A stretch of 64,000 bases of DNA, from the NCBI RefSeq assembly GCF_000591055.1, contig NC_020388.1, forward strand, positions 310,001-374,000. The letters are read 5' to 3'. The notes under the pieces are model-generated. The model did not search any database, had not been told where the DNA came from, and saw only the letters and a program-made list of their open reading frames with translations. Made by a program: the position numbers and the translations under genes. Source of the stretch: Natronomonas moolapensis 8.8.11. Its GTDB lineage: Archaea; Halobacteriota; Halobacteria; Halobacteriales; Haloarculaceae. Of the stretch, positions 3,802-15,611 are shown piece after piece (position 1 is the first letter of the stretch; every line of letters starts with the position of its first letter).

Positions 3802-6135
3802 TCAGTCGGCCGGTTCGGCGGCCTCCGGGACCCGTCTGCCGCCGAGAGTGTAGAGCCACAGCGAACCGAGACCGAGGCCGTAGGCGGCGATGATCGGCAC
3901 CCCGAGCAGGAACATCGTGAAGATCCCCCGCGGCGAGAGGAACGCCCCGGCCGCCAGCACGGCGATGGCGAACTCCCGCCACCGCGTTCGGAAGACGCCG
4001 TAGGGAACGATCCCCCCCCGGTGGAACAGAAGCATCGTGACCGGCACCATCACGAGGATGCCGATGCCGACGGTGAAAAAGAAGATCATCCATCCGTAGT
4101 TGCTGATCCGGTAGGCGATCACCATCCCGGCGTCCAACACGTCCGAGGCGAGCCACGAGATAGCCGTCGGCGCGAGATAGAGGAATCCGAACAGGCTGCC
4201 GAGCACCATCGCCGTCAGCAGGCTTCCACCCCACACGAGCAGGACGCGCCGGTCTCCCCGGGCGAGGCCACGGTCCTTCAGCGCCGGCCACGCGTAGTAC
4301 AAAAGCAGGGGTAGCGTCGAGGCGGCCCCGAAGATCACCGAGACCTTTATCATAAAAATGAGTGCCTCGACGGGGTGTAACGTGACGATCGAGACCTGTT
4401 CGGCGGCGAACTGCGAGGGCATCCCGCCAACGAAGCGCTCGTGGAGGACGCCGATCCCGCCCTGATACAGCACGAAGAACGTGGCGGCCATGACGGCCGC
4501 GAACACGCCGACGAGCCGGAACGACTTCGAGGTGACGCTGTCGAGGATGAACTTGATGTCGTAGGCGTACCCGCCGATGTCGTCCTCGTCGACGTCGTCG
4601 TCGCTGAAAACGTCGAGCGCGCCAGCGCTCCGCTCCGCGAGGCTCCGGCCGTCCGCGCCGGCCTCGGCTCCGGCGGGATCGCTCTCGTCTCCCCTCGCGG
4701 CGGTTCCGGCCCCGGCAGCCTCCTGAACAGTGGAATCGCCACGGACTTGCTGGCGCCGTCGAAGACTCTTGGCGGTTTCGGCCCCGACAGTCCCCTGCGT
4801 GTGCTGGCTCTGGCCGGGCTCTCCTTGCGGTGGAACGGAGCCGTCTCCGGCCGTCCCCTCGCCCTCGGATGCCTCCTCGGCGGCCGCCTCGGCCTCGTCG
4901 AACCGATCGAGGATCGCCTGGGCGCGATCCGGATCGTCCGCCTCCATCGCGGCCCCGGCGAGGCCGACTGCTTCGTCTTCGTCCATCGCCGCAAAGACCG
5001 CGCCGGGAGCCGACCGGACGCCTTCGAGGTCGAGGTCGGCCACGTCGATTTCCTCGGGATCGAGCCGCCGCACGTCCGGTTCAGGCTCCTCGAGGCCGTC
5101 GTAGACGAAGTACGCGAACCCGAGAACGCTGAAGACGAGCCCGTATACCGATCCGACCACGGCGAGGTAGGTCGTTTCGGCGATCCCGTAGCCAGCGCCG
5201 GGCGGGAGAATCCGATACCCCGACCCGGCGGCAGCGAGCAGATCGTTGAGGGCCGCGCCCACTCCGTAGGTGTAGAAGGCGTAGACCGAGCCGGCGCCGA
5301 GAACGAACAGCCCGACGAGGACGTTCCAGCGCTCGCCGGCCGTCTGACGGACGTCGATCGAGTCGTGGGAGCGTTTGGTCGTGACGACGATCTTGGACAG
5401 GTACAGCGACGCGCCGTACAGCACGACGAGCGGCACTGCCCACATGATCTGCGTGAACGGATCCGGCGGCGAGAACAGCGCACCGAACACGAAGATGGCG
5501 ATGACGGCGTACTTCCACTTGTCGCGGAACGTCTCGTAGGGGACGATCCCGGTGTACGAGAGCGTGCTCATGAGCAACGGCAGTTGCGCCGCCAGCCCGA
5601 ACGACAGCGAGAGCAAAAAGACGAACTGCGCCCACATAGAGATGGAGTACGTGGGCTCGAAGCCCGCGCCGACGGCGTTGTCGGCGAGGAACCCGAACAT
5701 GATCGGAAAAAAGAGGTGATACGCGTAGGCGACGCCGCCGACGAACAGCCCCGCGCTGGCGAGGCCGAATCCGGCCCCCTTCCAGCGGGGGAAGCTCTCC
5801 GGCCACCGCCCGCGGTTCTTCAGCGAGTCGCGGCCGAAGTACGCGAGCGCCGGCAGCATGATGATGAGCCCCGACACCAACCCAATCTTCGCCTGCAGGA
5901 GGATGACCTCGAAGGGCGTGATGGCGACGACGACGATGTCGGGGTGGGCGTTCAGGTCCTGTTTAAGGATATCCCAGATGTAGAGGCGCAGGACGGTGAA
6001 TATCCCGAGAAATCCGATCAAGAAGACGATGAACACCTTCTGGAGGTGCTTCTGTGCGGTTCGAAGCAGCGCGCCGAGATGTGCGCGGCCCTCCGAGACC
6101 GTCCGGGCGACATCGTCGTCTACGGCGCTGGACAC
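3802..6135 (-). CDS. tatCt: Twin-arginine translocase TatCt (two fused TatC domains)
   Basis: 777-residue membrane protein with two TatC modules joined by an acidic linker, an arrangement typical of haloarchaea, which send most secreted proteins through Tat. Module 1 (about residues 1-300) starts ARTVSEGRAHLGALLRTAQK, the short pre-helix of TatC, and has about six membrane segments. Two further helices follow, then a disordered Asp/Glu/Gly/Gln linker (about 390-530), then module 2 (about 540-770). GTG at 6135 was chosen; upstream readings lose TatC similarity. Divergent from tatCo with 138 bases between the starts. Very long antisense readings over this gene are shadows. Confidence 0.92.
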   Translation of the reverse strand: MSSAVDDDVARTVSEGRAHLGALLRTAQKHLQKVFIVFLIGFLGIFTVLRLYIWDILKQDLNAHPDIVVVAITPFEVILLQAKIGLVSGLIIMLPALAYFGRDSLKNRGRWPESFPRWKGAGFGLASAGLFVGGVAYAYHLFFPIMFGFLADNAVGAGFEPTYSISMWAQFVFLLSLSFGLAAQLPLLMSTLSYTGIVPYETFRDKWKYAVIAIFVFGALFSPPDPFTQIMWAVPLVVLYGASLYLSKIVVTTKRSHDSIDVRQTAGERWNVLVGLFVLGAGSVYAFYTYGVGAALNDLLAAAGSGYRILPPGAGYGIAETTYLAVVGSVYGLVFSVLGFAYFVYDGLEEPEPDVRRLDPEEIDVADLDLEGVRSAPGAVFAAMDEDEAVGLAGAAMEADDPDRAQAILDRFDEAEAAAEEASEGEGTAGDGSVPPQGEPGQSQHTQGTVGAETAKSLRRRQQVRGDSTVQEAAGAGTAARGDESDPAGAEAGADGRSLAERSAGALDVFSDDDVDEDDIGGYAYDIKFILDSVTSKSFRLVGVFAAVMAATFFVLYQGGIGVLHERFVGGMPSQFAAEQVSIVTLHPVEALIFMIKVSVIFGAASTLPLLLYYAWPALKDRGLARGDRRVLLVWGGSLLTAMVLGSLFGFLYLAPTAISWLASDVLDAGMVIAYRISNYGWMIFFFTVGIGILVMVPVTMLLFHRGGIVPYGVFRTRWREFAIAVLAAGAFLSPRGIFTMFLLGVPIIAAYGLGLGSLWLYTLGGRRVPEAAEPAD

Positions 6136-6273
6136 ACCGGGGCGTACTCCGTTCGCAGTTATCAACCTTTTCCGTTCGACCCGGGGCGCCGTCGCCTGGG
6201 GCCGGTCGGGGGGAGGTCGGGGGCGACCGGTCGAGAGAGAAGGCTTACAAACGCCCGCGTCCGACGGTGGATA

Positions 6274-7053
6274 ATGGCAGAGACCGCCGACGGGAGCTAC
6301 GACGCCGACGACGGGCTGGTCGGCGAGGGACCCGAAAGCGACGAGGAGATGCCGCTTGCGGACCACATCGAGGAGATGGTCTATCGGCTCGGCATCGTCC
6401 TCGTCGTGATGGCGATCATCTCGGGGATCGTCTTTCCGTTCGGCGAGCGGATCATCAACTTCCTGTGGTACTCCGTCCTCCCCGGCGGGGACATCGCCCG
6501 CCCCCGGGTGTATCACCCTCTCGGGCTCATTCTCGCGCGATTGAAAGTCGCGACGCTCGCGGGGTTCGTCGTCGGTCTCCCGGTCTTCGTCTACCAGACG
6601 TACCTGTTCATGCGCCCGGGACTCTATCCGGCGGAGCGCCGCTACTACCTCGCCTCCGTGCCGGCGAGTCTCGTGTTGGGCGTCTTCGGGGTGCTGTTCG
6701 CGTACTTTCTCGTCCTGCCGGCGATCTTCACGTACTTTTTGACCTATTCTCAAGACGCCGCCGTGATCGCCTTCGGGCTGACGGACACGTTCGACCTCAT
6801 CGTGTTGATGATGGGGCTGTTCGCGGCCGTCTTCCAGATCCCGCTGTTCGTGATGCTCGCGATCATGATGGGGCTGACGACCCGCGCGTGGCTGGCCGCA
6901 AAACGGCTGTACTTCTGGGGGGCGTTCCTCGGCATCGCGTTCCTCTTCAGCCCCGACCCGACGGGGATGGCCCCGATACTGGTCGCCGGGACGATGATCG
7001 GGCTCTTCGAGGCGACGCTGTTCGCCCTCCGGTGGGTCAAGCGGTCGCCGTAG
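6274..7053 (+). CDS. tatCo: Twin-arginine translocase TatCo
   Basis: 259-residue single TatC that binds the Tat signal peptide of folded cargo. It opens with an acidic tail and then the conserved EEMPLADHIEEMVYRLG, equivalent to the L-x-E-L-R-x-R stretch before helix 1, and has six membrane helices with the family motif GLPVFVYQTYLFMRPGLYP between helices 2 and 3. ATG 6274 is preceded by CTTACAAA about 27 bases upstream, consistent with a leaderless start. Divergent partner of tatCt. Confidence 0.94.
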   Translation: MAETADGSYDADDGLVGEGPESDEEMPLADHIEEMVYRLGIVLVVMAIISGIVFPFGERIINFLWYSVLPGGDIARPRVYHPLGLILARLKVATLAGFVVGLPVFVYQTYLFMRPGLYPAERRYYLASVPASLVLGVFGVLFAYFLVLPAIFTYFLTYSQDAAVIAFGLTDTFDLIVLMMGLFAAVFQIPLFVMLAIMMGLTTRAWLAAKRLYFWGAFLGIAFLFSPDPTGMAPILVAGTMIGLFEATLFALRWVKRSP

Positions 7054-7083: not shown

Positions 7084-7995
7084 CTATCGACCGGGGGTAT
7101 CGACCCGCCCCAACACGTCGAGTTGGTGGGTGAGATACAGCAACTCGGCGGCCTCGAGTTGCTCGCGCCGCCGATCGAGCCACCCCTCGAGGTCGACCCG
7201 GAACGACTCCCCGGCCACCTCGTCGACGGCCGCCTCGACGGTATCGAGAATACACCGGAGGAAATACGCCTCGTCGGCGGGGTACTCGCCGTCGACCGGG
7301 CGGACGACCCAATCGGAGCCGGCCGCGCCGAGGACCCGTGCGTCGTCGGTCGCCCGGAGCCGTTCGAGGACGTCGCCGCCGGCCCGGCTGCTTCCCCCCG
7401 GCTTCGCGTCCATGTGCTCGTGGTAGTACCGCTCTATCTCCGGGTCTGTCGGGTGGCCCGGACGGAAGCGGGTCCCCCCGTCGAAGGTGATCGGAAAGTA
7501 ACAGAGCCCCCCCGGCGCGAGCGCGCCGAGCAGCGTCTCGAGTCCGTCCACTCCGAGCACGTCCAACAGTGCCGCGCCGACGACGGCGTCGAACCGACCT
7601 GCCGCCTGCTCGGCGTAAGCGACGGCTTCGGCTGCGATCGCTTCGAGCTCGACGCGTCGGCCCGCCCGCTCGATTTCGATCGGCCCGCCGCCGGACACCG
7701 ACGCCTGACGGTCGGCGGCCCACGACCGCAGGTACGGTTCGACGAACTCGACGCTGTCGGCGTCGACGTCGAGGGCCACGTATCGGACCGCCCCCGGCGG
7801 CAACACGTCCCACTCGAGGAGGCGGGCGGGCATCGTCCCGATCCCCGCCCCGACCTCGAGGACGCGGAGCGGCCCCTCGCGGGCGTCGGCCCGCTTGGCC
7901 AGTTGCTCGCGGAGCAGTCCGACGAGACGACGGTCGAGCGCGCGGTCGTCGACGGTGCGCTTTGCCCGGAGGTACCGCCGAAAATCGTCTCTCAC
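7084..7995 (-). CDS. SAM-dependent methyltransferase of the pterin/sugar cluster
   Basis: 303-residue class I methyltransferase. The SAM site is PLRVLEVGAGIGTMPARLLE (about residues 43-62), followed by VALDVDADSVEFV (acidic loop for the ribose) and FDAVVGAALLDVL (post-motif). The substrate is unknown. The start is GTG at 7995, sharing GTGA with the stop of the upstream glycosyltransferase gene, so the two are coupled and probably act on the same product. Last gene of the minus-strand run 11550-7084. Confidence 0.85.
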   Translation of the reverse strand: MRDDFRRYLRAKRTVDDRALDRRLVGLLREQLAKRADAREGPLRVLEVGAGIGTMPARLLEWDVLPPGAVRYVALDVDADSVEFVEPYLRSWAADRQASVSGGGPIEIERAGRRVELEAIAAEAVAYAEQAAGRFDAVVGAALLDVLGVDGLETLLGALAPGGLCYFPITFDGGTRFRPGHPTDPEIERYYHEHMDAKPGGSSRAGGDVLERLRATDDARVLGAAGSDWVVRPVDGEYPADEAYFLRCILDTVEAAVDEVAGESFRVDLEGWLDRRREQLEAAELLYLTHQLDVLGRVDTPGR

Positions 7996-9056
7996 ACTGC
8001 TGCCCCCCCGGAGACGGTCGCACGGAGCAACCGGCGGACGCGAGCCGTCGTCTCCGTCCAGTCGGGGTGGCGCTCGTAGCGCCGCCTGGCGGCCTGTCCC
8101 ATCGCAGCCAGGCGATCGGGGTCGCCCGCAAAACGCGCTATCGCCGCTGCGACCGCCTCGGCGTCGCCCGGATCGACGAGAACCCCCGTTTCGCCGTCGG
8201 TGACCGTCTCGGCCGCCCCGCCGGCACTGGACGCGATCGCGGGGAGACCGAAGCTCATCCCCTCGAGGTAGACGATGCCGAACCCCTCGTATCGGGAGGG
8301 GACCGCGAGGACGTGGCTCGACCGGAGGGCAGCCGAAAGCGCCTCGTCGGACAGCTCGCCGGCCATCCGGACACGTCCGCCGAGGTCGTGTCTCCGGACG
8401 CGGCGTCGGACCGCCTCGACGTACGTCTCGTCGGCCGGCCGGCCGACGACGGTCAGTTCCGCCTCGGTGCCGGAGCCGGCCAACCCCTCGACGAGCGTCG
8501 TCAGCCCCTTCCGGGGCGCGACGGTACCGACGAAGGCGATCCGGAGGGGACGCTCGCGTGCGCGGCGGTCGATCGTTGCCCTGTCGACGTCGGGGTCGAA
8601 CCGATCGCCGGCCGGCGGCGCGACGACGGTGGCGTCGGTGTCGACGCCGAGGCCGGCGACGACGGTTTCCGTGGCCGAGCTGTTGCAGACTACCCCGTCG
8701 ACGGTCCCGAGATAGCGGCGCTCGATCGCGCGATACAGCGGCGAGAGCCGGCGGGATTCGCTCGCGCGGAGGTGGTGGACGACGCTGACGACGGGGTAGG
8801 GGAGGTGTCGGTTCGTCCGGACCAAGGAGGGATGGGCGAGTTCGTCCTGCAACATGACGTCGACGTCGACCCGGAGCCGATCGCGGAGTCGCCGGGAGGC
8901 GTTGTCGAGCAGGCCGCGACCGTAGCGCCGCCAGGGGAGTTCGACGACGTCGACGGTGTCGCCGGCCCGCCGGAGCCCCTCGACGAGTTTTCGGTCGTAC
9001 CGGAAGCCGCCCGACCGACGCTCGAGGCCGCCGTACAGCGTCAACCCGACGTTCAT
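7992..9056 (-). CDS. GT4-family (GT-B) glycosyltransferase
   Basis: 354-residue retaining glycosyltransferase of the RfaG/PimB type, transferring a sugar from a nucleotide donor. It begins MNVGLTLYGGLERRSGGFRY, with the Gly-rich N-terminal Rossmann half. The C-terminal half holds IAFVGTVAPRKGLTTLVEG and the donor-site motif PSRYEGFGIVYLEGMSFGLP, containing the E-x7-E pair. The acceptor cannot be read. ATG 9056 overlaps the PTPS-like gene stop as ATGA, and its own stop overlaps the methyltransferase start. Confidence 0.9.
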   Translation of the reverse strand: MNVGLTLYGGLERRSGGFRYDRKLVEGLRRAGDTVDVVELPWRRYGRGLLDNASRRLRDRLRVDVDVMLQDELAHPSLVRTNRHLPYPVVSVVHHLRASESRRLSPLYRAIERRYLGTVDGVVCNSSATETVVAGLGVDTDATVVAPPAGDRFDPDVDRATIDRRARERPLRIAFVGTVAPRKGLTTLVEGLAGSGTEAELTVVGRPADETYVEAVRRRVRRHDLGGRVRMAGELSDEALSAALRSSHVLAVPSRYEGFGIVYLEGMSFGLPAIASSAGGAAETVTDGETGVLVDPGDAEAVAAAIARFAGDPDRLAAMGQAARRRYERHPDWTETTARVRRLLRATVSGGAAV

Positions 9057-9430
9057 ACCGACGCGTCGTAGGTGGCGGCCGCGGTGTCGTCCTCCCAGAC
9101 GGTCACGGCGAGTTCCGTCACCGTGCCGTCGGTCACCACGTCGGCCACGCGCTCGAAGACGACCCGGGCGAAGCGCTCGACGCTGGGGTTGGACCCCTCG
9201 AACGCCCGGCGGTCGTTGAGCAGTTCGTCGCGGTAGCGGTCCGCCACCTCCGAAAGCGCCGCTTCGGCGTCGTCGATGTCGACGAGGTAGTCGTACTCGT
9301 TCAGCTCCGGGCCGCGGAACGTCACCTCGATCTCGAAGTGATGTGAGTGCGGCACGCCCTCCGGACCAGGATTCGGGACGGTGAGATAGTGTTGTGCGAC
9401 GAAGTCCGTCGACACCGTCGTCGAGTACAT
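9053..9430 (-). CDS. PTPS/QueD-family (COG0720) protein with an altered active site
   Basis: 125-residue T-fold protein. The zinc ligands of the family are present (His in DFVAQHYL; HxH in PHSHHFEIEV) and so is the pterin-anchoring Glu near the end (VTVWEDDTAAATY). The catalytic Cys of QueD/PTPS (CxxxHGH) is Glu here (ExxxHSH, from PGPEGVPHSH), as in the PTPS-III variant that makes hydroxymethyl-dihydropterin. The Asp-His dyad of QueD (LDHHYLND) aligns with YRDELLND and is lost. It should bind a pterin, but it may catalyse a different or partial reaction. ATG 9430; overlaps the glycosyltransferase gene by 4 bases. Confidence 0.8.
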   Translation of the reverse strand: MYSTTVSTDFVAQHYLTVPNPGPEGVPHSHHFEIEVTFRGPELNEYDYLVDIDDAEAALSEVADRYRDELLNDRRAFEGSNPSVERFARVVFERVADVVTDGTVTELAVTVWEDDTAAATYDASV

Positions 9431-9512
9431 GTGCGAGGAAACGTGCGGGAGGCACCTAAACCCGGAGGTCGAGGCAGCCGCCCTGGCGGTCTCGGTCAGC
9501 GAGCCGGAGCGA

Positions 9513-10514
9513 TCATCGGTAGTCGAACGCGATCTGAACGGCCTCGTCGGGCCGCTCCTCGAGGAGCCGATACGCGTCGGCCGCACTCTCGACGCCGAAC
9601 TCGTGGGTGAGCATCGCCGTGGGATCGTTCTCGCGCAGCCACGACCGAACGAGATCCATCCGGCGATCCTTGTCCCACCGGCCGGCGTGGTCGGGGTCGA
9701 TCCGGCTCACCTGGCTGCTTCGCATTCTGAGGTGGCTCCGGTGGTACGTCTCGCCGAGGTCGAGCGTCACGTCCTTGGTGCCGTACCACGATCCGACGAT
9801 GACTTGGCCCGCGTATCCGGTGGCGTCGACGGCGTCGTCGAGCGCTGTCGGGTTCCCGGAGAGTTCGATCGTGATGTCGGCCCCGTCTCCGGACGCGTCC
9901 GCGAGAGCCGCCTCCAGCTCCGACGGTCGGACGGAGCGGTCGGCGCCGAACGACTCCGAGAGCGCCCGTCGGGATTCGAGTCGCTCGACGGTGATGAGTT
10001 CGGCCAGCGGGAACGCCGAGAGCACCGCCGTCGTCAACAGACCGACCGGCCCCTGACCGAACACGACGACGCGCGCCCCGATGCGGGGGCGGGCGTCCAT
10101 GACGAGGTTGATCGCCGTCTCGACGCTGGGAACGAAGATCGCCCGTTCGGGCGCGAGCGCGATCGGAATCAGCGCCGTCGGATCGGCGACGAAGTGGCTC
10201 TCGTGGGGGTTGAACGCGAACACCCGGCGGTCGAGCCACTCCTCGCCGACCGCTTCGCCGACAGCCGCGATCCGGCCGACCGCGGCGTACCCGTATCGGA
10301 GCGGATACGAGAAGGTCCCCTCGAGCGCCTCGATAGTTTCGTCGGCCCGCATCTCGGAGGGCACTTCGTTTCGGTACAGCAACATCTCGGTGCCGGGGCT
10401 GACGCCCGAGCGCTCCGTGCGTACCAACACTTCCTCTGCCCCCGGTTCGGGGACCGGTTCCGTGCGGACCTCGACCGACTCCGGCCCGGTAAAACACACC
10501 GCCCGGCGGGTCAT
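9513..10514 (-). CDS. Zinc-type medium-chain dehydrogenase (COG1063-like)
   Basis: 333-residue medium-chain dehydrogenase/reductase. The GroES-like half ends near residue 130. The nucleotide-binding half has VVVFGQGPVGLLTTAVLSAF (GxGxxG) and TVERLESRRALSESFGAD (co-factor acidic loop). The catalytic-zinc Cys of classical alcohol dehydrogenases (CGSD) is replaced by SGVSPGTEML, as in sorbose/chlorophyllide-type relatives, and no structural-zinc Cys cluster is visible. ATG 10514 chosen; a CATATATG box at 10611-10618 suggests a short leader. Same strand and order as the PTPS-like, glycosyltransferase and methyltransferase genes. Confidence 0.82.
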   Translation of the reverse strand: MTRRAVCFTGPESVEVRTEPVPEPGAEEVLVRTERSGVSPGTEMLLYRNEVPSEMRADETIEALEGTFSYPLRYGYAAVGRIAAVGEAVGEEWLDRRVFAFNPHESHFVADPTALIPIALAPERAIFVPSVETAINLVMDARPRIGARVVVFGQGPVGLLTTAVLSAFPLAELITVERLESRRALSESFGADRSVRPSELEAALADASGDGADITIELSGNPTALDDAVDATGYAGQVIVGSWYGTKDVTLDLGETYHRSHLRMRSSQVSRIDPDHAGRWDKDRRMDLVRSWLRENDPTAMLTHEFGVESAADAYRLLEERPDEAVQIAFDYR

Positions 10515-10665
10515 CGCCCCTCGCACCGCCGCGGTGTCGCTTCGGGTTCGATCGGAGCGACGGGACGGCGGGCGCGGTCGCGTCGACGCGTCCTCTGGAG
10601 GTACACGGCACATATATGCGCGTTGTCGAACTAAAAACTACGCGTACCGGTCCCCTGGACACCGA

Positions 10666-11550
10666 TCACAGATACCCGAGCGCGGCGAGGCGCTCTCGAT
10701 CGGTTTCGGCCCCGTACACGCGACTCACCGGGAGCGGTTCGGGCGGGTCGAGCGCCGGCGTGTGGGTCCCCCGGTCGGTCCCCGTCGTCTCCGCCCACGG
10801 GACCGCAAGCAGGGCCGAAATCGGGGTGTGCATCGGGTGACCGTAGAGCCCCCACTCCCCGAAGAGGTTGCCGTGGTCGGCGGTGACCACGATCCGGCCG
10901 TCGACGTTCTCCACGAGCGTCTCGACCTCTCCGAGGGCGTACCGGAGGTTCGCGCAGTAGGCGTCCCACACGCGCTCTCGGGACACGTCGCCGCGTCGGA
11001 GCGACACCCACGGGTTCGCGTCGCTGCTTCGGTCGCCCGTCCGGGCCATGCCGCCGTCGCCCGCGAGGGGGTCGGGGACGAACGGGTGGTGTGGCTGCAT
11101 GTAGTGGACGACCAACCGATCGGCGTCGCGCTCGCGGGCCGCCGCAACCGCCCGGTCGGTGATCGCCGCCGCCGGGACCGTGCCCGACTCGTCGTCCCAG
11201 GCGTACTTCCAGACCTCGTCGAGGGCGGCGAACGACTCCGAATCGAGATACCGGTCCGTCCAGGTGTTGCCCGTCACCATTACCGTTCTCGCGGTCTCTT
11301 CGCGCCCGCCGAAGGTGTTCTCGAGCCACTCCGAGGAGGAACTACCGACCGACCGGACCGTTCCGACGTCGCCCAAAAACGCCACGTCGGGCGCAACGTC
11401 GCGGAGGGCGTCGGCGCGGCAGGCGTCGAGGACGACGAGGACGTCCCACTCGCGGTCGAAGACGTTCGTGCCGTAGGGGAGTCGCCGCCCGATCGCCTGA
11501 ATACACCGCAGGTAGGCGGTGCCGAGGCGACCCATCCCCGGTTCGGTCAT
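10666..11550 (-). CDS. Alkaline-phosphatase-superfamily hydrolase (sulfatase-like, no Cys nucleophile)
   Basis: 294-residue metal-dependent hydrolase. It carries VLVVLDACRADALRDVAPD (first metal Asp), VVHYMQPHHPFVPDP, and VTADHGNLFGEWGLYGHP (Asp-His metal ligands and final His). The sulfatase CxPSR motif is missing. The equivalent stretch is VRSVGSSSSEWLENTF, so a Ser nucleophile and a phosphatase or phospho-head-group transferase role are more likely than sulfate removal. No signal peptide, so it is probably cytoplasmic. First gene of the minus-strand run, divergent from the Gfo/AKR fusion. Confidence 0.8.
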   Translation of the reverse strand: MTEPGMGRLGTAYLRCIQAIGRRLPYGTNVFDREWDVLVVLDACRADALRDVAPDVAFLGDVGTVRSVGSSSSEWLENTFGGREETARTVMVTGNTWTDRYLDSESFAALDEVWKYAWDDESGTVPAAAITDRAVAAARERDADRLVVHYMQPHHPFVPDPLAGDGGMARTGDRSSDANPWVSLRRGDVSRERVWDAYCANLRYALGEVETLVENVDGRIVVTADHGNLFGEWGLYGHPMHTPISALLAVPWAETTGTDRGTHTPALDPPEPLPVSRVYGAETDRERLAALGYL

Positions 11551-11627
11551 ACCCGGCGTTGGCCGGCAGGCAACTAAACGCCGTCGCCGGGAGGGTGCGT
11601 CGGCCGAGTGCCGCCGCCGGGAGAGCT

Positions 11628-13676
11628 ATGTGTCCGGACGCCGCCGGTACGAGCGTGAACTGCCTGTTCGTGGGGGCGGGTGCCATCGCTCCCGAGTACA
11701 CCGCCGGCCTGGCGGCGAGTTCGCTCTCCGTGGCCGGCGTCTGTGACCTCGACGGCGACCGCGCCGCGGCGCTGGCCGACGAGTGTGGCTGTCCGTCTTT
11801 TACCGATCTCGACCGGGCGCTCGAGGTGGTCGAGGCCCCGCTAGTGGTGAACCTGACCGGCCACGCCGCCCACGCGTCGGTGACGCGGACGGCCCTGGCG
11901 GCTGACCGACACGTCTACTCACAGAAGCCACTGGCGCTCGACGCCGACGCCGCCGCGGGACTGGTAGCGACGGCCCGGCGGCGCGGGTTGGCGCTCGGCT
12001 GTGCTCCCGGAACCCCGCGAGCGCCCGCACAGCGCCGGGCGCGGCGGCTCCTCGCGGACGGCCGGCTCGGCCCCGTCGGATTGGCGTCCGCCCACGCCCA
12101 CGTCGGCCGCGTCACCGACTGGCACGACGACCCCGAGTCCTTTCTGGAGGTCGGCCCGCTGTACGACGGGGCGGTCTACCCACTTGCGCTCCTCGTCTCG
12201 TGGTTCGGCCCCGTCGAGCGCGTCCGCGTCGCCGACCGACTCGACGTCTGGCCCGACCGCGAGACGAGGCGCCCCTCGACCCCGAGCCACGTCGAGGCGA
12301 CGCTGGCGTTCGAGTCGGGACCGACCGTCCGTCTCACCGCCAGTCTCTACGTCCCACACCGCAGCCGGGAGTTCTACGGGCTAGAGCTACACGGCGACGA
12401 CGGGTCGCTGTACCTCCGGGGGACCGGCGCGATGGAAACCGACCTCGACGACGTCCAGTTCGGCCGGGTCGGCCGGGGGTACACGAACGCCCCGCCGGTG
12501 TCGCCCGGACGCCGGTACCGGTACGTCGATCCGGTCGAGCGCCTCGCCGCGAGCGTCGCCGAGGGGAGTCCGTCTCGATCCGGGGGCCGCCGCGGCGCCC
12601 ACGTCGTCGCCGTCTGCAACGCGATCGAGGCGGCCGCCGAGGGCGGGGGACCGGTCACCGTCCCGGATCATGGGGCCGAACGCGCTCCGGTCCCGAACCC
12701 GGTCGTCCGACCGCCGGAGCGCGACGCCCGCCCGCCGGGCGCGGCGGAAGCGGACGACAGCGCCGCGACCGCGACCGCGACCACGGGGGCGCAGTCGCTC
12801 AGGCTCCCGCCGATCGGGTTCGGCTGTTCGCGCTACCGCGACGGTGAGTACGTCGACCGGATCGACTCGATCGCGACCGCCCTCGATGCCGGCTACCGGC
12901 TTCTCGACTCCGCGGAACTGTACGGCAACGAACACCGGATCGGAGACGTGCTCGCCGCGCCAGGGGCCCCCGACCGCGAGGGGGTCTTTCTCGTCGGCAA
13001 GGCCTGGCGCACGAACCACCGCCGCGAGCACCTGCTCGAGGCGTGTGCGGGCAGTCGATCCGAACTCGGGATCGACGCCTTCGATTGTTATACGCTGCAT
13101 TGGCCCTCGGCGCTCGTCCACCGCGGCGAACTCTCCCGGCTCGCCGAGAAGCCGATCGAAAAACAGGAAGCGCACACCTTTCCGACGGACAGCGACGGGA
13201 CTCTCGAGACGGCCGACGTCCCGCTGGTGGCGGCCTGGCGGAACCTCGAGGCGACGTACGACCGCGGTTGGGCGCGGACTCTCGGGATCTGTAACGTCTC
13301 GCGGGCGGAGCTGGAGACGGTCCTCGAGACCGGGACCGTCCCGCCGGCGATCGTCCAGATCGAACGCCACCCGTACAGACCGCAGACGGATCTCGTCTCC
13401 GTCTGTCACGACCGGGGCATCCGGATCCTCGCGCACTCGCCGCTGTCGGCGCCCGGCCTCCTCGAGGAACCCGTCTTAGAACGGATCGGCGCCGAACGCG
13501 GGCTCTCGCCCGCGGGGGTCGTCGTCGCGTGGAACGTCACGAACGGCGTCGTCCCGATCCCCTCCAGCACCACCTCCGAGCACGTCGTCTCGAACCTGGC
13601 CGCGGCCGCGACCCGGCTGCGTCCCGAGGAGTGTGCGCGGATCGAAGCGCTCCGCGACCCAGCGTTCGAGCGTTGA
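11628..13676 (+). CDS. Fusion of Gfo/Idh/MocA oxidoreductase and aldo/keto reductase
   Basis: 682-residue two-enzyme protein. Residues about 1-345 are a Gfo/Idh/MocA sugar dehydrogenase (NCLFVGAGAIAPEYTAGL nucleotide loop; YSQKPLALD with the catalytic Lys of the EKP motif). After a Pro/Ala/Thr-rich linker, residues about 385-675 are an AKR5-like aldo/keto reductase with the whole tetrad: Asp and Tyr in LLDSAELYGNEHRIGD, Lys in FLVGKAW, His in CYTLHWPS. Two consecutive oxidoreductions of one sugar-like substrate are implied. ATG 11628 is used; GTG at 11655 (VNCLFVGAG) is an equally good start. Divergent from the hydrolase gene. Confidence 0.85.
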   Translation: MCPDAAGTSVNCLFVGAGAIAPEYTAGLAASSLSVAGVCDLDGDRAAALADECGCPSFTDLDRALEVVEAPLVVNLTGHAAHASVTRTALAADRHVYSQKPLALDADAAAGLVATARRRGLALGCAPGTPRAPAQRRARRLLADGRLGPVGLASAHAHVGRVTDWHDDPESFLEVGPLYDGAVYPLALLVSWFGPVERVRVADRLDVWPDRETRRPSTPSHVEATLAFESGPTVRLTASLYVPHRSREFYGLELHGDDGSLYLRGTGAMETDLDDVQFGRVGRGYTNAPPVSPGRRYRYVDPVERLAASVAEGSPSRSGGRRGAHVVAVCNAIEAAAEGGGPVTVPDHGAERAPVPNPVVRPPERDARPPGAAEADDSAATATATTGAQSLRLPPIGFGCSRYRDGEYVDRIDSIATALDAGYRLLDSAELYGNEHRIGDVLAAPGAPDREGVFLVGKAWRTNHRREHLLEACAGSRSELGIDAFDCYTLHWPSALVHRGELSRLAEKPIEKQEAHTFPTDSDGTLETADVPLVAAWRNLEATYDRGWARTLGICNVSRAELETVLETGTVPPAIVQIERHPYRPQTDLVSVCHDRGIRILAHSPLSAPGLLEEPVLERIGAERGLSPAGVVVAWNVTNGVVPIPSSTTSEHVVSNLAAAATRLRPEECARIEALRDPAFER

Positions 13677-13746
13677 ACCGGGGCCCGAAACGCCCGACGG
13701 TTTCGGCCGGCAGTACAACTATGTGATGTAGTCCCGTACGTCAGGT

Positions 13747-14130
13747 ATGGCAACGGCCGGCTCCCGGCAGTTGGAACCCAGCACCGACACCCTCCACGGT
13801 CTCCACTGGGTGGGCATCATCGCCGCGCTCGTCTCCGCCGCGATCCACCTCCTGTTGGGGGTCCGGATGCTCCCCTCGGGGATGGGGATCAGCTTCGTTC
13901 TCGCCGGCCTCGGCTTTTTCGGTGCGATCGCACTCGTCCTGTTCGATTACCGCCGCCGGACGGTGTACGCCGTCGGCGTCCCCTTCACGCTCGTACAGAT
14001 CGTACTGTGGTACTACGTCAACTTCGCGGCCGGCCCGAAATCGTTCCCGGCGGACGTGGGTACGCTGGGGATCGTCGACAAGGCCGCACAGGCCCTCCTC
14101 GTTGTGGTGCTCGTCGCCCTGCTTCGGTAG
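13747..14130 (+). CDS. Small four-helix membrane protein
   Basis: 127 residues with four hydrophobic helices: WVGIIAALVSAAIHLLLGV, GISFVLAGLGFFGAIALVLF, AVGVPFTLVQIVLWYYVNF and AQALLVVVLVALL, joined by short loops (RRRTVYAV; GPKSFPADVGTLG). No motif points to a function. It resembles a haloarchaeal-only DUF (possibly DUF7475). It stands between the Gfo/AKR fusion and the CDP-alcohol phosphotransferase on the same strand. Confidence 0.75.
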   Translation: MATAGSRQLEPSTDTLHGLHWVGIIAALVSAAIHLLLGVRMLPSGMGISFVLAGLGFFGAIALVLFDYRRRTVYAVGVPFTLVQIVLWYYVNFAAGPKSFPADVGTLGIVDKAAQALLVVVLVALLR

Positions 14131-14331
14131 TCGTGGTCGCCCGACGCCCCGGGTTCCGAAGCCGGGGATCGAATCTTGCCGCCGTACACGCGTTTTAATC
14201 GGTGGTAGGCGTAGACTGTGCGAGTGTATTCCACATGAGCGACTCGCGCCGAATCGAGTGGTCACTCCGGCCCGCCCCGGCCACCCGGAGCCGAAAGGCC
14301 CACCGACACGGGGCACTTCGAGGAGGCGTCG

Positions 14332-15111
14332 ATGACCGATTTCGGACGTGACCGTCCGGTACACCCCGGGCTGGGGATCGGACTCCCGCTGCTCGCCGCC
14401 GTCTCGCTCGCGGCCGCGCTCCACTGGGCGCTCCCGTCCGGGCCGACGGGTCGGTGGGGGCTCTCTCCGGCGGTCGTCGCCGGACTCTGCTGGGCGGGGC
14501 AACTCTGGTACGTGGGGTACAGCCTCGATTCGACGCGGCCGGCCGACGGCATTCGGTGTCTGTTCGGCCTGGCGAACGCGATGACACTGCTTCGGGGGAC
14601 GCTCTACGCGGTCGCAGCCGGATTCGCCGTCTTGCCGCCCGATACCGGCCTCGCGTGGGTGCCGGCGCTGTGTTACGGCGCCGGGGTCGTCCTCGACAAA
14701 CTCGACGGCGTCGTCGCCCGAAGCGTCGGCCGCGAGACTGACCTCGGCGAGCGTCTCGACGTGGCTTTCGACACCTTCGGGTTCGTCGCCGCCCCGGTCG
14801 TGGCGGTGTCGTGGGGGCTGTTGCCCGCTTGGTACCTCTCGATATCGGTGGCCCGTTACGTCTTCGTGGGCGGGGTCCGCTGGCGGCGGTTGCGCGGGCG
14901 GCCGGTGTTCGACCGCCCCGACAGCGATCTCGGCAAGTACCTCGCCGGGCTCCAGATGGCGTTTCTCACGGTTGCGCTCCTCCCTGCGGCGCCGACCGGC
15001 CTCGTCCGTGCCGTCGCGCCGGTCGCCCTCGCGCCGTCGCTCGCCGTGTTCGCGCGGGACTACCTCGCCGTCAGCGGCCGGCTCTGCGGGCGCGCTCGCA
15101 GCCAGAATTAA
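14332..15111 (+). CDS. CDP-alcohol phosphatidyltransferase family enzyme
   Basis: 259-residue membrane enzyme with about six helices. The catalytic signature D-xx-DG-xx-AR-x8-G-xxx-D-xxx-D is complete (DKLDGVVARSVGRE, then TDLGERLDVAFD, about residues 122-147). The family moves a phospho-head group from a CDP-alcohol onto a second alcohol in the membrane. Which alcohols cannot be told. Its position in the block with a phosphatase-like enzyme, glycosyltransferase and methyltransferase suggests anchoring the pathway product to a lipid or making a phosphodiester. Possibly co-transcribed with the next gene (26-base gap). Confidence 0.88.
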   Translation: MTDFGRDRPVHPGLGIGLPLLAAVSLAAALHWALPSGPTGRWGLSPAVVAGLCWAGQLWYVGYSLDSTRPADGIRCLFGLANAMTLLRGTLYAVAAGFAVLPPDTGLAWVPALCYGAGVVLDKLDGVVARSVGRETDLGERLDVAFDTFGFVAAPVVAVSWGLLPAWYLSISVARYVFVGGVRWRRLRGRPVFDRPDSDLGKYLAGLQMAFLTVALLPAAPTGLVRAVAPVALAPSLAVFARDYLAVSGRLCGRARSQN

Positions 15112-15137
15112 CTCCGGTCGCGCCCCACATCGAACGG

Positions 15138-15611
15138 ATGCTCTTTGTGACCCACCTCGCCGCGGCCGCGGTCGTCGGCCGCCTCTCGCGGCTCCCGACG
15201 GTCCCGCTCGCCGCCGGCGCGGCCACCCCCGACCTCATCGACAAGCCGCTCGGGGCGGCGGGGGTCGTCGAGTTGTACCACTCGATCGGCCACAGCGCGC
15301 TCGTGTTCGCGGTGCTCGTCCCGCTTGCGCTGTACTCTCGGCTCGGAGTGGCAGTCGCACTCGGGTGGGCGTCGCATCTCCTCTTCGATGTGGTCCACGT
15401 CGTGCTCAACGGCCGTCCCGGACACGCGCTGTTTCTGCTGTGGCCGCTCGCGCGCTCGAGCGATCCGCTCGGACTCCCGCCGGTCGCGTTCGTCCGACAC
15501 TACCTCTGGACACCGTCGTTCTACTTCGAAGCCGTCCTGTGGCTTGCGCTCCTCGCGGTGTTCATATGGGAGCGACGCCGAGGGGGCCTCGCTCCCGGGA
15601 TGGGGGGATGA
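15138..15611 (+). CDS. YdjM/DUF457-type membrane protein (putative metal-dependent hydrolase)
   Basis: 157 residues, about four membrane helices, with the His/Asp pattern of the YdjM family: MLFVTHLAAAAVVGRL at the start, GAATPDLIDKPLG, ELYHSIGHSALVFAV and GWASHLLFDVVHVV. The conserved His and Asp residues on helix ends could bind metal. Family members are annotated as hydrolases by similarity only. ATG 15138 is 26 bases after the CDP-alcohol transferase stop, suggesting one transcript. Confidence 0.8.
   Translation: MLFVTHLAAAAVVGRLSRLPTVPLAAGAATPDLIDKPLGAAGVVELYHSIGHSALVFAVLVPLALYSRLGVAVALGWASHLLFDVVHVVLNGRPGHALFLLWPLARSSDPLGLPPVAFVRHYLWTPSFYFEAVLWLALLAVFIWERRRGGLAPGMGG

Follow-up and report, generated by a model that had tools for sequence, protein, structure and literature searches.

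Gene content and organization of the locus

The window analyzed here is a 64,000-nucleotide stretch of the 2.9 Mb genome of the haloarchaeon Natronomonas moolapensis 8.8.11 (C1:310001-374000), in which nine genes, among them one for a protein of the PTPS/QueD fold (hereafter, the PTPS-like protein), lie between a TatC gene ending at position 7053 and purC. A first-pass annotation had singled out this block, at positions 7084-15611, as a candidate undescribed pathway, and its extent and gene list proved accurate on comparison with the open reading frames and Pfam matches (Table 1). The ATGA and GTGA overlaps that it described as tightly joining three of the genes are likewise real: the PTPS-like and GT4 genes share the four bases ATGA (9053-9056), and the GT4 and methyltransferase genes share GTGA (7992-7995). 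Upstream, 82 bases separate the MDR gene from the PTPS-like gene, while the phosphatase-like gene and the Gfo/AKR fusion are divergent and 77 bases apart. Five of the nine genes constitute a core that recurs in haloarchaea and in bacteria.

Table 1. Genes of the block, with positions in the window
Gene product	Position	Strand	Basis and remarks
Class I S-adenosylmethionine-dependent methyltransferase, core	7084-7995	minus	GTG start overlapping the GT4 stop; fold from AlphaFold2/Foldseek; bacterial orthologues found with the haloarchaeal hidden Markov model
GT4-family glycosyltransferase, core	7992-9056	minus	PF00534, 1.4e-35; GT4 of the bacterial clusters is the orthologue
PTPS/QueD-fold protein (SCO6650-like), core	9053-9430	minus	PF01242, 2.4e-26
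Zinc-independent MDR oxidoreductase (BchC/threonine-dehydrogenase-like Rossmann), core	9513-10514	minus	PF00107, 3.7e-13
Alkaline-phosphatase/sulfatase-superfamily protein, accessory	10666-11550	minus	PF00884, 3.1e-4, under the Pfam cut-off
Fused Gfo/Idh/MocA and aldo/keto reductase (Gfo/AKR), haloarchaeal accessory	11628-13676	plus	PF01408, 9e-15; PF00248, 1.3e-40
DUF7475 small membrane protein, frequent haloarchaeal partner	13747-14130	plus	PF24287, 6.5e-17
CDP-alcohol phosphotransferase, core	14332-15111	plus	PF01066, 1.2e-17; intact motif
Small membrane protein	15138-15611	plus	no match in the Pfam search; Haloarcula relative annotated 'metal-dependent hydrolase'

Conservation in haloarchaea

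Of 242 haloarchaeal genomes, 143 encode a close relative of the PTPS-like protein (at E≤1e-3 the count is 145, two of the matches being weak). We compared 43 haloarchaeal neighborhoods, 40 taken from genomes together with two plasmid loci and the window itself, and found the MDR gene in 39, the methyltransferase in 38, the CDP-alcohol transferase in 32, GT4 in 29 and DUF7475 in 28. The closest relatives keep the whole block arranged as in the window, as does plasmid pHsi388 of Haloarcula sinaiiensis, where a creatininase-family gene adjoins it. The Gfo/AKR fusion and the phosphatase-like gene, which the first-pass annotation had included in the set, occur in only 16-17 and 12 of the 43 loci, respectively, and the fusion is essentially absent from bacteria; both are lineage-specific accessories and not part of the core. 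Relatives of the small membrane protein at 15138-15611 were present in 14 of the 43.

Across the 242 genomes, the PTPS-like gene and the cluster-type CDP-alcohol transferase occurred together in 134, the former alone in 9, the latter alone in one and neither in 98 (raw counts, kinship ignored), so that the transferase accompanies 134/143 PTPS-positive but 1/99 PTPS-negative genomes. The sole genome with the transferase but without the PTPS-like gene carries it at G109:C1:1632557-1633276. The MDR and PTPS-like genes are the most tightly linked pair of the cluster; in 124 loci from the two domains they keep their order on a single strand, with a median gap of 36.5 bases. Given this preserved order and the co-occurrence of the PTPS-like protein with the CDP-alcohol transferase, the arrangement of the block cannot be attributed to chance.

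Disrupted copies were also seen. In Haloarcula marismortui the PTPS-like gene is split into two pieces in both records (NC_006395.1:104289-104662 and NZ_CP039137.1:232705-233078), and the match in genome G153 contains an in-frame TGA, marking a naturally disrupted copy.

Relatives in bacteria

A tblastn search with the haloarchaeal consensus located the block on plasmids of Peteryoungia, Agrobacterium, Palleronia and Candidatus Thiodictyon, where RibD_C, MDR, PTPS-like and methyltransferase genes stand together, in most cases also with RibA, the CDP-alcohol transferase and GT4. When the GTDB species genomes were scanned with a bacteria-only PTPS alignment, at least 575 bacterial stretches were found to encode a relative. 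The best 80 of these matches, and thus the closest relatives, come from alpha-, beta- and gammaproteobacteria, Nannocystaceae, actinobacteria and one acidobacterium; all 80 contain the MDR-PTPS pair, 78 GT4, 75 the methyltransferase and 69 the CDP-alcohol transferase, with RibD_C in 57, a flippase-type protein of the lysylphosphatidylglycerol-synthase-TM family (LPG_synthase_TM) in 47 and RibA in 38. Bacterial counts given out of 86 refer to a set of loci spanning Pseudomonadota, Actinomycetota, Acidobacteriota and Myxococcota, among which RibD_C was found in 62, the flippase-type protein in 50, RibA in 42, a creatininase-family gene in 37 and a YceI-like gene in 17.

Hidden Markov models built from the five haloarchaeal core families recovered every bacterial member, with median E-values of 1e-15 to 1e-65, and we therefore regard the haloarchaeal and bacterial loci as one gene set in two domains. 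The first-pass annotation had mentioned an impression of related gene sets in some bacteria, which these loci bear out; the lack of co-occurrence in other genomes that would have counted against it was not observed, as MDR, PTPS-like, GT4, methyltransferase and CDP-alcohol transferase genes stand together in haloarchaeal and bacterial loci alike. Gene content, orthology, synteny, co-occurrence, residue changes and folds were all computed directly. Present annotations of this five-gene core, which haloarchaea share with at least several hundred bacterial genomes, speak of queuosine synthesis, a zinc alcohol dehydrogenase and anonymous transferases. We found no description of the gene set in the open-access full-text literature, although subscription journals may hold one.

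Two Streptomyces plasmid relatives were considered as a bacterial version of the cluster and rejected, the PTPS-like gene being solitary there. These solo copies (L072:12001-12399 and L079:10001-10426) have no cluster partners and may reflect another use of the protein. A cytochrome b561 gene lies beside five bacterial loci (L076, L077, L080, L081 and L113); together with the 17 YceI-like neighbors, which belong to an isoprenoid-binding family, it would be in keeping with a product that is lipophilic or redox-active.

The PTPS-like protein

The AlphaFold2 model of the window protein (predicted local distance difference test, pLDDT, 93.6) matched SCO6650 from Streptomyces coelicolor (PDB 3D7J, deposited as an uncharacterized protein) as its nearest solved structure, with a template-modeling (TM) score of 0.90 in Foldseek; in the profile comparison, SCO6650 scored E 3.3e-48. 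Its PF01242 match, the modeled T-fold and a pterin-anchoring Glu kept in 131/131 aligned PTPS-like sequences place it within the PTPS fold. SCO6650 shares the VRDHIMIAHS and FGPAQRLHGATF motifs with the bacterial cluster proteins and, like them, represents the bacterial form, lacking the third zinc His of the haloarchaeal proteins. We assign the cluster protein to the SCO6650 subfamily on the basis of 3D7J being the closest structure and of the MDR-PTPS-GT4-methyltransferase-CDP-alcohol transferase neighborhood, the latter seen at other Streptomyces loci and not at that of SCO6650 itself. In 2008, SCO6650 was reportedly found to lack PTPS activity. What is new here is the neighborhood of SCO6650-type PTPS proteins across domains.

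With QueD, PTPS and PTPS-III (COG0720), the cluster protein has in common the T-fold, the pterin-binding Glu and two or three zinc His; it differs in having neither the catalytic Cys nor the Asp-His pair, and no queC, queE or folate genes as neighbors. The position of QueD Cys27 is occupied by Glu in 43/43 haloarchaeal and by Ala in 88/88 bacterial sequences, that of His71 by Asp in 43/43 haloarchaeal and mostly by Tyr or Phe in bacterial sequences, and that of Asp70 mostly by Arg or Asn. The zinc His triad is complete in the haloarchaeal form (one sequence excepted at the second His), while Ala takes the place of the third in bacteria. The window protein scored 42.7 bits against the curated QueD model, whose cut-off is 89.25, while true QueDs scored 93-101. 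Its haloarchaeal motif is ExxxHSH, compared with ExxHGH in PTPS-III and CxxxHGH in QueD (PMC5041015). The alignment contradicts a reading of the tripeptide LND as a relic of the LDH motif of QueD. In the phylogenetic tree, the haloarchaeal and bacterial clades were each monophyletic and well supported, and both were distinct from three QueD sequences. Of the COG0720 subgroups, PTPS-IV is said to be involved in F420 (unpublished) and PTPS-V has an unclear role (PMC5041015); the family of the cluster may be one of these two.

The MDR protein and the transferases

In the adjoining MDR protein, Ser and Tyr stand in place of two catalytic zinc ligands, Cys and His, in every sequence compared (39/39 haloarchaeal, 86/86 bacterial), and the third ligand position is mostly Ala, Leu or Cys among these 125. 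The absence of the Cys/His/Glu catalytic zinc ligands rules out a zinc alcohol dehydrogenase.

The methyltransferase of the window gave only sub-threshold Pfam methyltransferase matches, and its AlphaFold2 model (pLDDT 86.6) aligned in Foldseek with methyltransferases such as 3MGG (E 1e-11). The glycosyl- and methyltransferase roles proposed by the first-pass annotation are thus supported at the level of family. In the CDP-alcohol transferase, the motif DxxDGxxAR-x8-GxxxDxxxD is intact in 29/32 haloarchaeal and 71/72 bacterial proteins. We infer glycosyl, methyl and CDP-alcohol transfer steps at this locus. The further proposal that the product is joined to a membrane alcohol is suggested by this intact motif and by the flippase-type (50/86) and YceI-like (17/86) neighbors, proteins that would suit a lipid product without proving it; lipid attachment via the CDP-alcohol transferase is, in our judgment, plausible at somewhat below even odds.

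Linkage to GTP cyclohydrolase, RibD_C and creatininase-family genes

On a Haloarcula plasmid, a GTP cyclohydrolase (GCH) IIa gene sits between the CDP-alcohol transferase and MDR genes. GCH III (PF05165), present in 237/242 haloarchaeal genomes, lies within about 10 kb of the PTPS-like gene in 18/43 haloarchaeal loci, compared with about 0.7% expected by chance from copy number and genome size, and is on the same strand in 16/16 clustered loci. In the window genome, the only GCH III (C1:1360046) and the only RibD_C (C1:1158334) both lie elsewhere; a creatininase-family gene lies outside the window at C1:293494-294183, about 25 kb from the PTPS-like gene.

The corresponding bacterial enzyme is RibA (GCH II). 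All ten bacterial genomes checked carry 2-3 GCH II genes, and the cluster RibA is therefore a paralogue. At the position of Escherichia coli Tyr105, it has Tyr in 28/42 proteins, Met in seven Streptomyces-type loci and His in six actinobacterial loci. The SCO6655-type GTP cyclohydrolase II, with Met for the active-site Tyr, stops at the formylamino pyrimidine, like archaeal GCH III. Its Met is shared by the seven Streptomyces-type proteins, whereas most proteobacterial ones keep the Tyr; with the Tyr retained in 28/42, a halt at the formylamino product could not be upheld for cluster RibA enzymes as a whole. Proteobacterial RibA proteins of 340-400 aa, such as that of Vreelandella (L140:13379-14479), have an N-terminal region of about 165 residues, Pfam-negative in the two tested, which may be a decayed RibB domain.

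The cluster RibD genes encode the reductase domain alone, without the deaminase, and a previously unlabelled recurrent bacterial gene was identified as a creatininase-family hydrolase. Against the ArfB model, this creatininase-family partner reached 20-40 bits, below the cut-off of 180, with BrbF outside the comparison. Across 129 loci we detected one weak deaminase hit and one FolE, but no RibB, RibH or RibE (riboflavin synthase), in a search that did not include Fo synthase; riboflavin or folate supply as the main role was rejected on these grounds. The cluster thus shares the cyclohydrolase, creatininase and pyrimidine reductase families with the early riboflavin/deazaflavin pathway (RibA or ArfA, ArfB/BrbF, RibD/ArfC), but is without its deaminase, RibB, RibH and RibE and has the GT4, methyltransferase, MDR, PTPS-like and CDP-alcohol transferase genes in addition. 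The pterin-like head group suggested in the first-pass annotation gains support from this linkage to GCH III/II, a RibD-type reductase and the creatininase family, and from the invariant pterin-anchoring Glu.

Proposed pathway

We propose, with a probability of roughly 0.68, that the block represents, in haloarchaea, a biosynthetic locus shared by two domains and so far assigned no product, acting on a GTP-derived ring that is remodeled by the PTPS-like and MDR proteins, glycosylated, methylated and perhaps joined to a lipid by the CDP-alcohol transferase. Each reaction, the order of the steps, the lipid attachment and the product are inferred. GTP would be opened to a formylamino- or diamino-pyrimidine ribotide by GCH III in haloarchaea or GCH II in bacteria, deformylated where needed, with the creatininase-family hydrolase as the candidate enzyme, and reduced to the ribityl form by the RibD_C-type reductase. 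Such products follow from the chemistry of GCH II/III and RibD, the ribityl form arising if RibD_C acts as in archaea (PMC9478397). A Met-type RibA stopping at the formylamino product would match archaeal GCH III, and in the window genome the early steps would be supplied by the single-copy or unlinked genes mentioned above.

The intermediate would then leave the riboflavin-like route before deamination, with its guanine-like 2-amino-4-oxo face presumably retained, since deaminase, RibB, lumazine synthase and riboflavin synthase are not in the set. This face would be held by the conserved Glu of the PTPS-like protein, which, with the adjoining zinc-free MDR, would carry out the committing step, altering the ring or its side chain in a reaction different from that of PTPS or QueD. 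GT4 would glycosylate and the methyltransferase methylate the product, a phosphate or hydroxyl of which (probably ribityl) might be joined by the CDP-alcohol transferase to lipid from CDP-archaeol or CDP-diacylglycerol; in bacteria, the flippase-type protein could export it. More speculatively, a 2-amino-4-oxo pyrimidine or pterin derived from GTP, glycosylated and methylated, might form the head group of a membrane lipid class (or lipid-anchored cofactor) that is common to archaea and bacteria and so far unassigned; the CDP-alcohol transferase would build it on ribityl phosphate, and it would then be flipped to the other side of the membrane. A redox role is left possible by the occasional cytochrome b561 and YceI-like neighbors.

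A single pathway branching off the riboflavin route before deamination would give a common context to SCO6650 and the Streptomyces GTP cyclohydrolase paralogues, and predicts a definable class of compounds, labeled from guanosine, bearing the groups added by the glycosyl- and methyltransferase, and possibly lipid. It is similar in kind to limipterin, tepidopterin and cyanopterin, in which a glycosyltransferase acts on a pterin. Those compounds start from FolE-derived biopterin with an active PTPS, whereas the cluster genes have no FolE beside them (one locus excepted) and encode a PTPS-fold protein with changed catalytic residues.

Several observations weigh against this pathway. One zinc His is missing from the bacterial PTPS-like protein, so haloarchaea and bacteria may use different chemistry, or the protein may act as a binder. 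The tree, with long branches between the groups, does not settle whether the haloarchaeal and bacterial clades arose together, apart from QueD, and their common origin is therefore argued from synteny. The GCH and RibD genes lie outside the window, and GCH III is missing from the vicinity of 25/43 haloarchaeal loci, which makes the link to GTP one of association; in bacteria, RibA, creatininase and RibD_C occur all together in only 23 of 67 full-length loci. The creatininase-family protein scores best to MftE, below the cut-off, and weakly to ArfB, so that its role as a formamidase is a guess. Finally, CDP-alcohol transferases use varied acceptors, and the lipid attachment is conjectural.

Alternative explanations

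NCBI names the relatives 6-carboxytetrahydropterin synthase with a queuosine Gene Ontology term, the window genome has no other PF01242 protein, and the Glu at the Cys position resembles PTPS-III, all of which would suit an ordinary QueD (or PTPS/PTPS-III) serving preQ0/archaeosine, folate or biopterin beside unrelated sugar genes. We consider this highly improbable, given the failure against the QueD model and the loss of Cys27 and His71 in 131/131 sequences. Moreover, the window genome lacks a full QueC, with partial matches to about 60 of 210 positions, and the recurrent neighbors are the MDR, GT4, methyltransferase and CDP-alcohol transferase genes, not queC or queE; a PTPS-III is further contradicted by ExxxHSH in place of ExxHGH and by FolE standing beside 1/129 loci. 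Nor is the locus likely to serve riboflavin or deazaflavin (F420) synthesis or flavin secretion, despite the presence of GCH III/II, RibD_C and creatininase-family genes and the unpublished link to F420 of PTPS-IV (PMC5041015), a subgroup that the cluster PTPS may represent. No RibB, RibH, riboflavin synthase or deaminase domain gene stands beside the locus, a separate GCH II exists in 10/10 bacterial genomes checked, and the PTPS-like family is absent from 99 of the 242 haloarchaeal genomes, yet nearly all have GCH III. For F420 specifically, the family occurs in many Pseudomonadota, in which, to our knowledge, this cofactor is not generally expected, and GT4, CDP-alcohol transferase and methyltransferase have no known role there.

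Glycan loci typically contain Gfo, AKR, GT4, FkbM, sulfatase-like and flippase genes, and with the catalytic residues lost from the PTPS-like protein, the block could instead make a cell-surface glycolipid or polysaccharide, the PTPS fold having been recruited for sugar processing with no pterin involved. The linkage in two domains to the non-homologous GCH III and GCH II and to RibD_C, together with the invariance of the pterin-anchoring Glu, makes this improbable. Closer to our proposal, and a tentative possibility within it, is that the same GTP-derived pathway ends in a soluble glycosylated, methylated pterin-like product (compare limipterin and cyanopterin), with the CDP-alcohol transferase acting elsewhere or forming a sugar-alcohol phosphodiester. 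Pterin glycosides are known in bacteria, GT4 and methyltransferase genes overlap the PTPS-like gene directly in many loci, and the CDP-alcohol transferase gene is often on the opposite strand and was not seen in 14/86 bacterial loci, some of them incomplete. Set against a soluble product are the close tracking of the PTPS-like gene by that transferase in haloarchaea and the recurrence of flippase-type and YceI-like lipid-binding-family proteins in bacterial loci.

Left flank of the block

Immediately to the left of the block (window positions 3802-7053) are two convergent-to-adjacent TatC genes, one of double length, an arrangement also found in some of the closest relatives.

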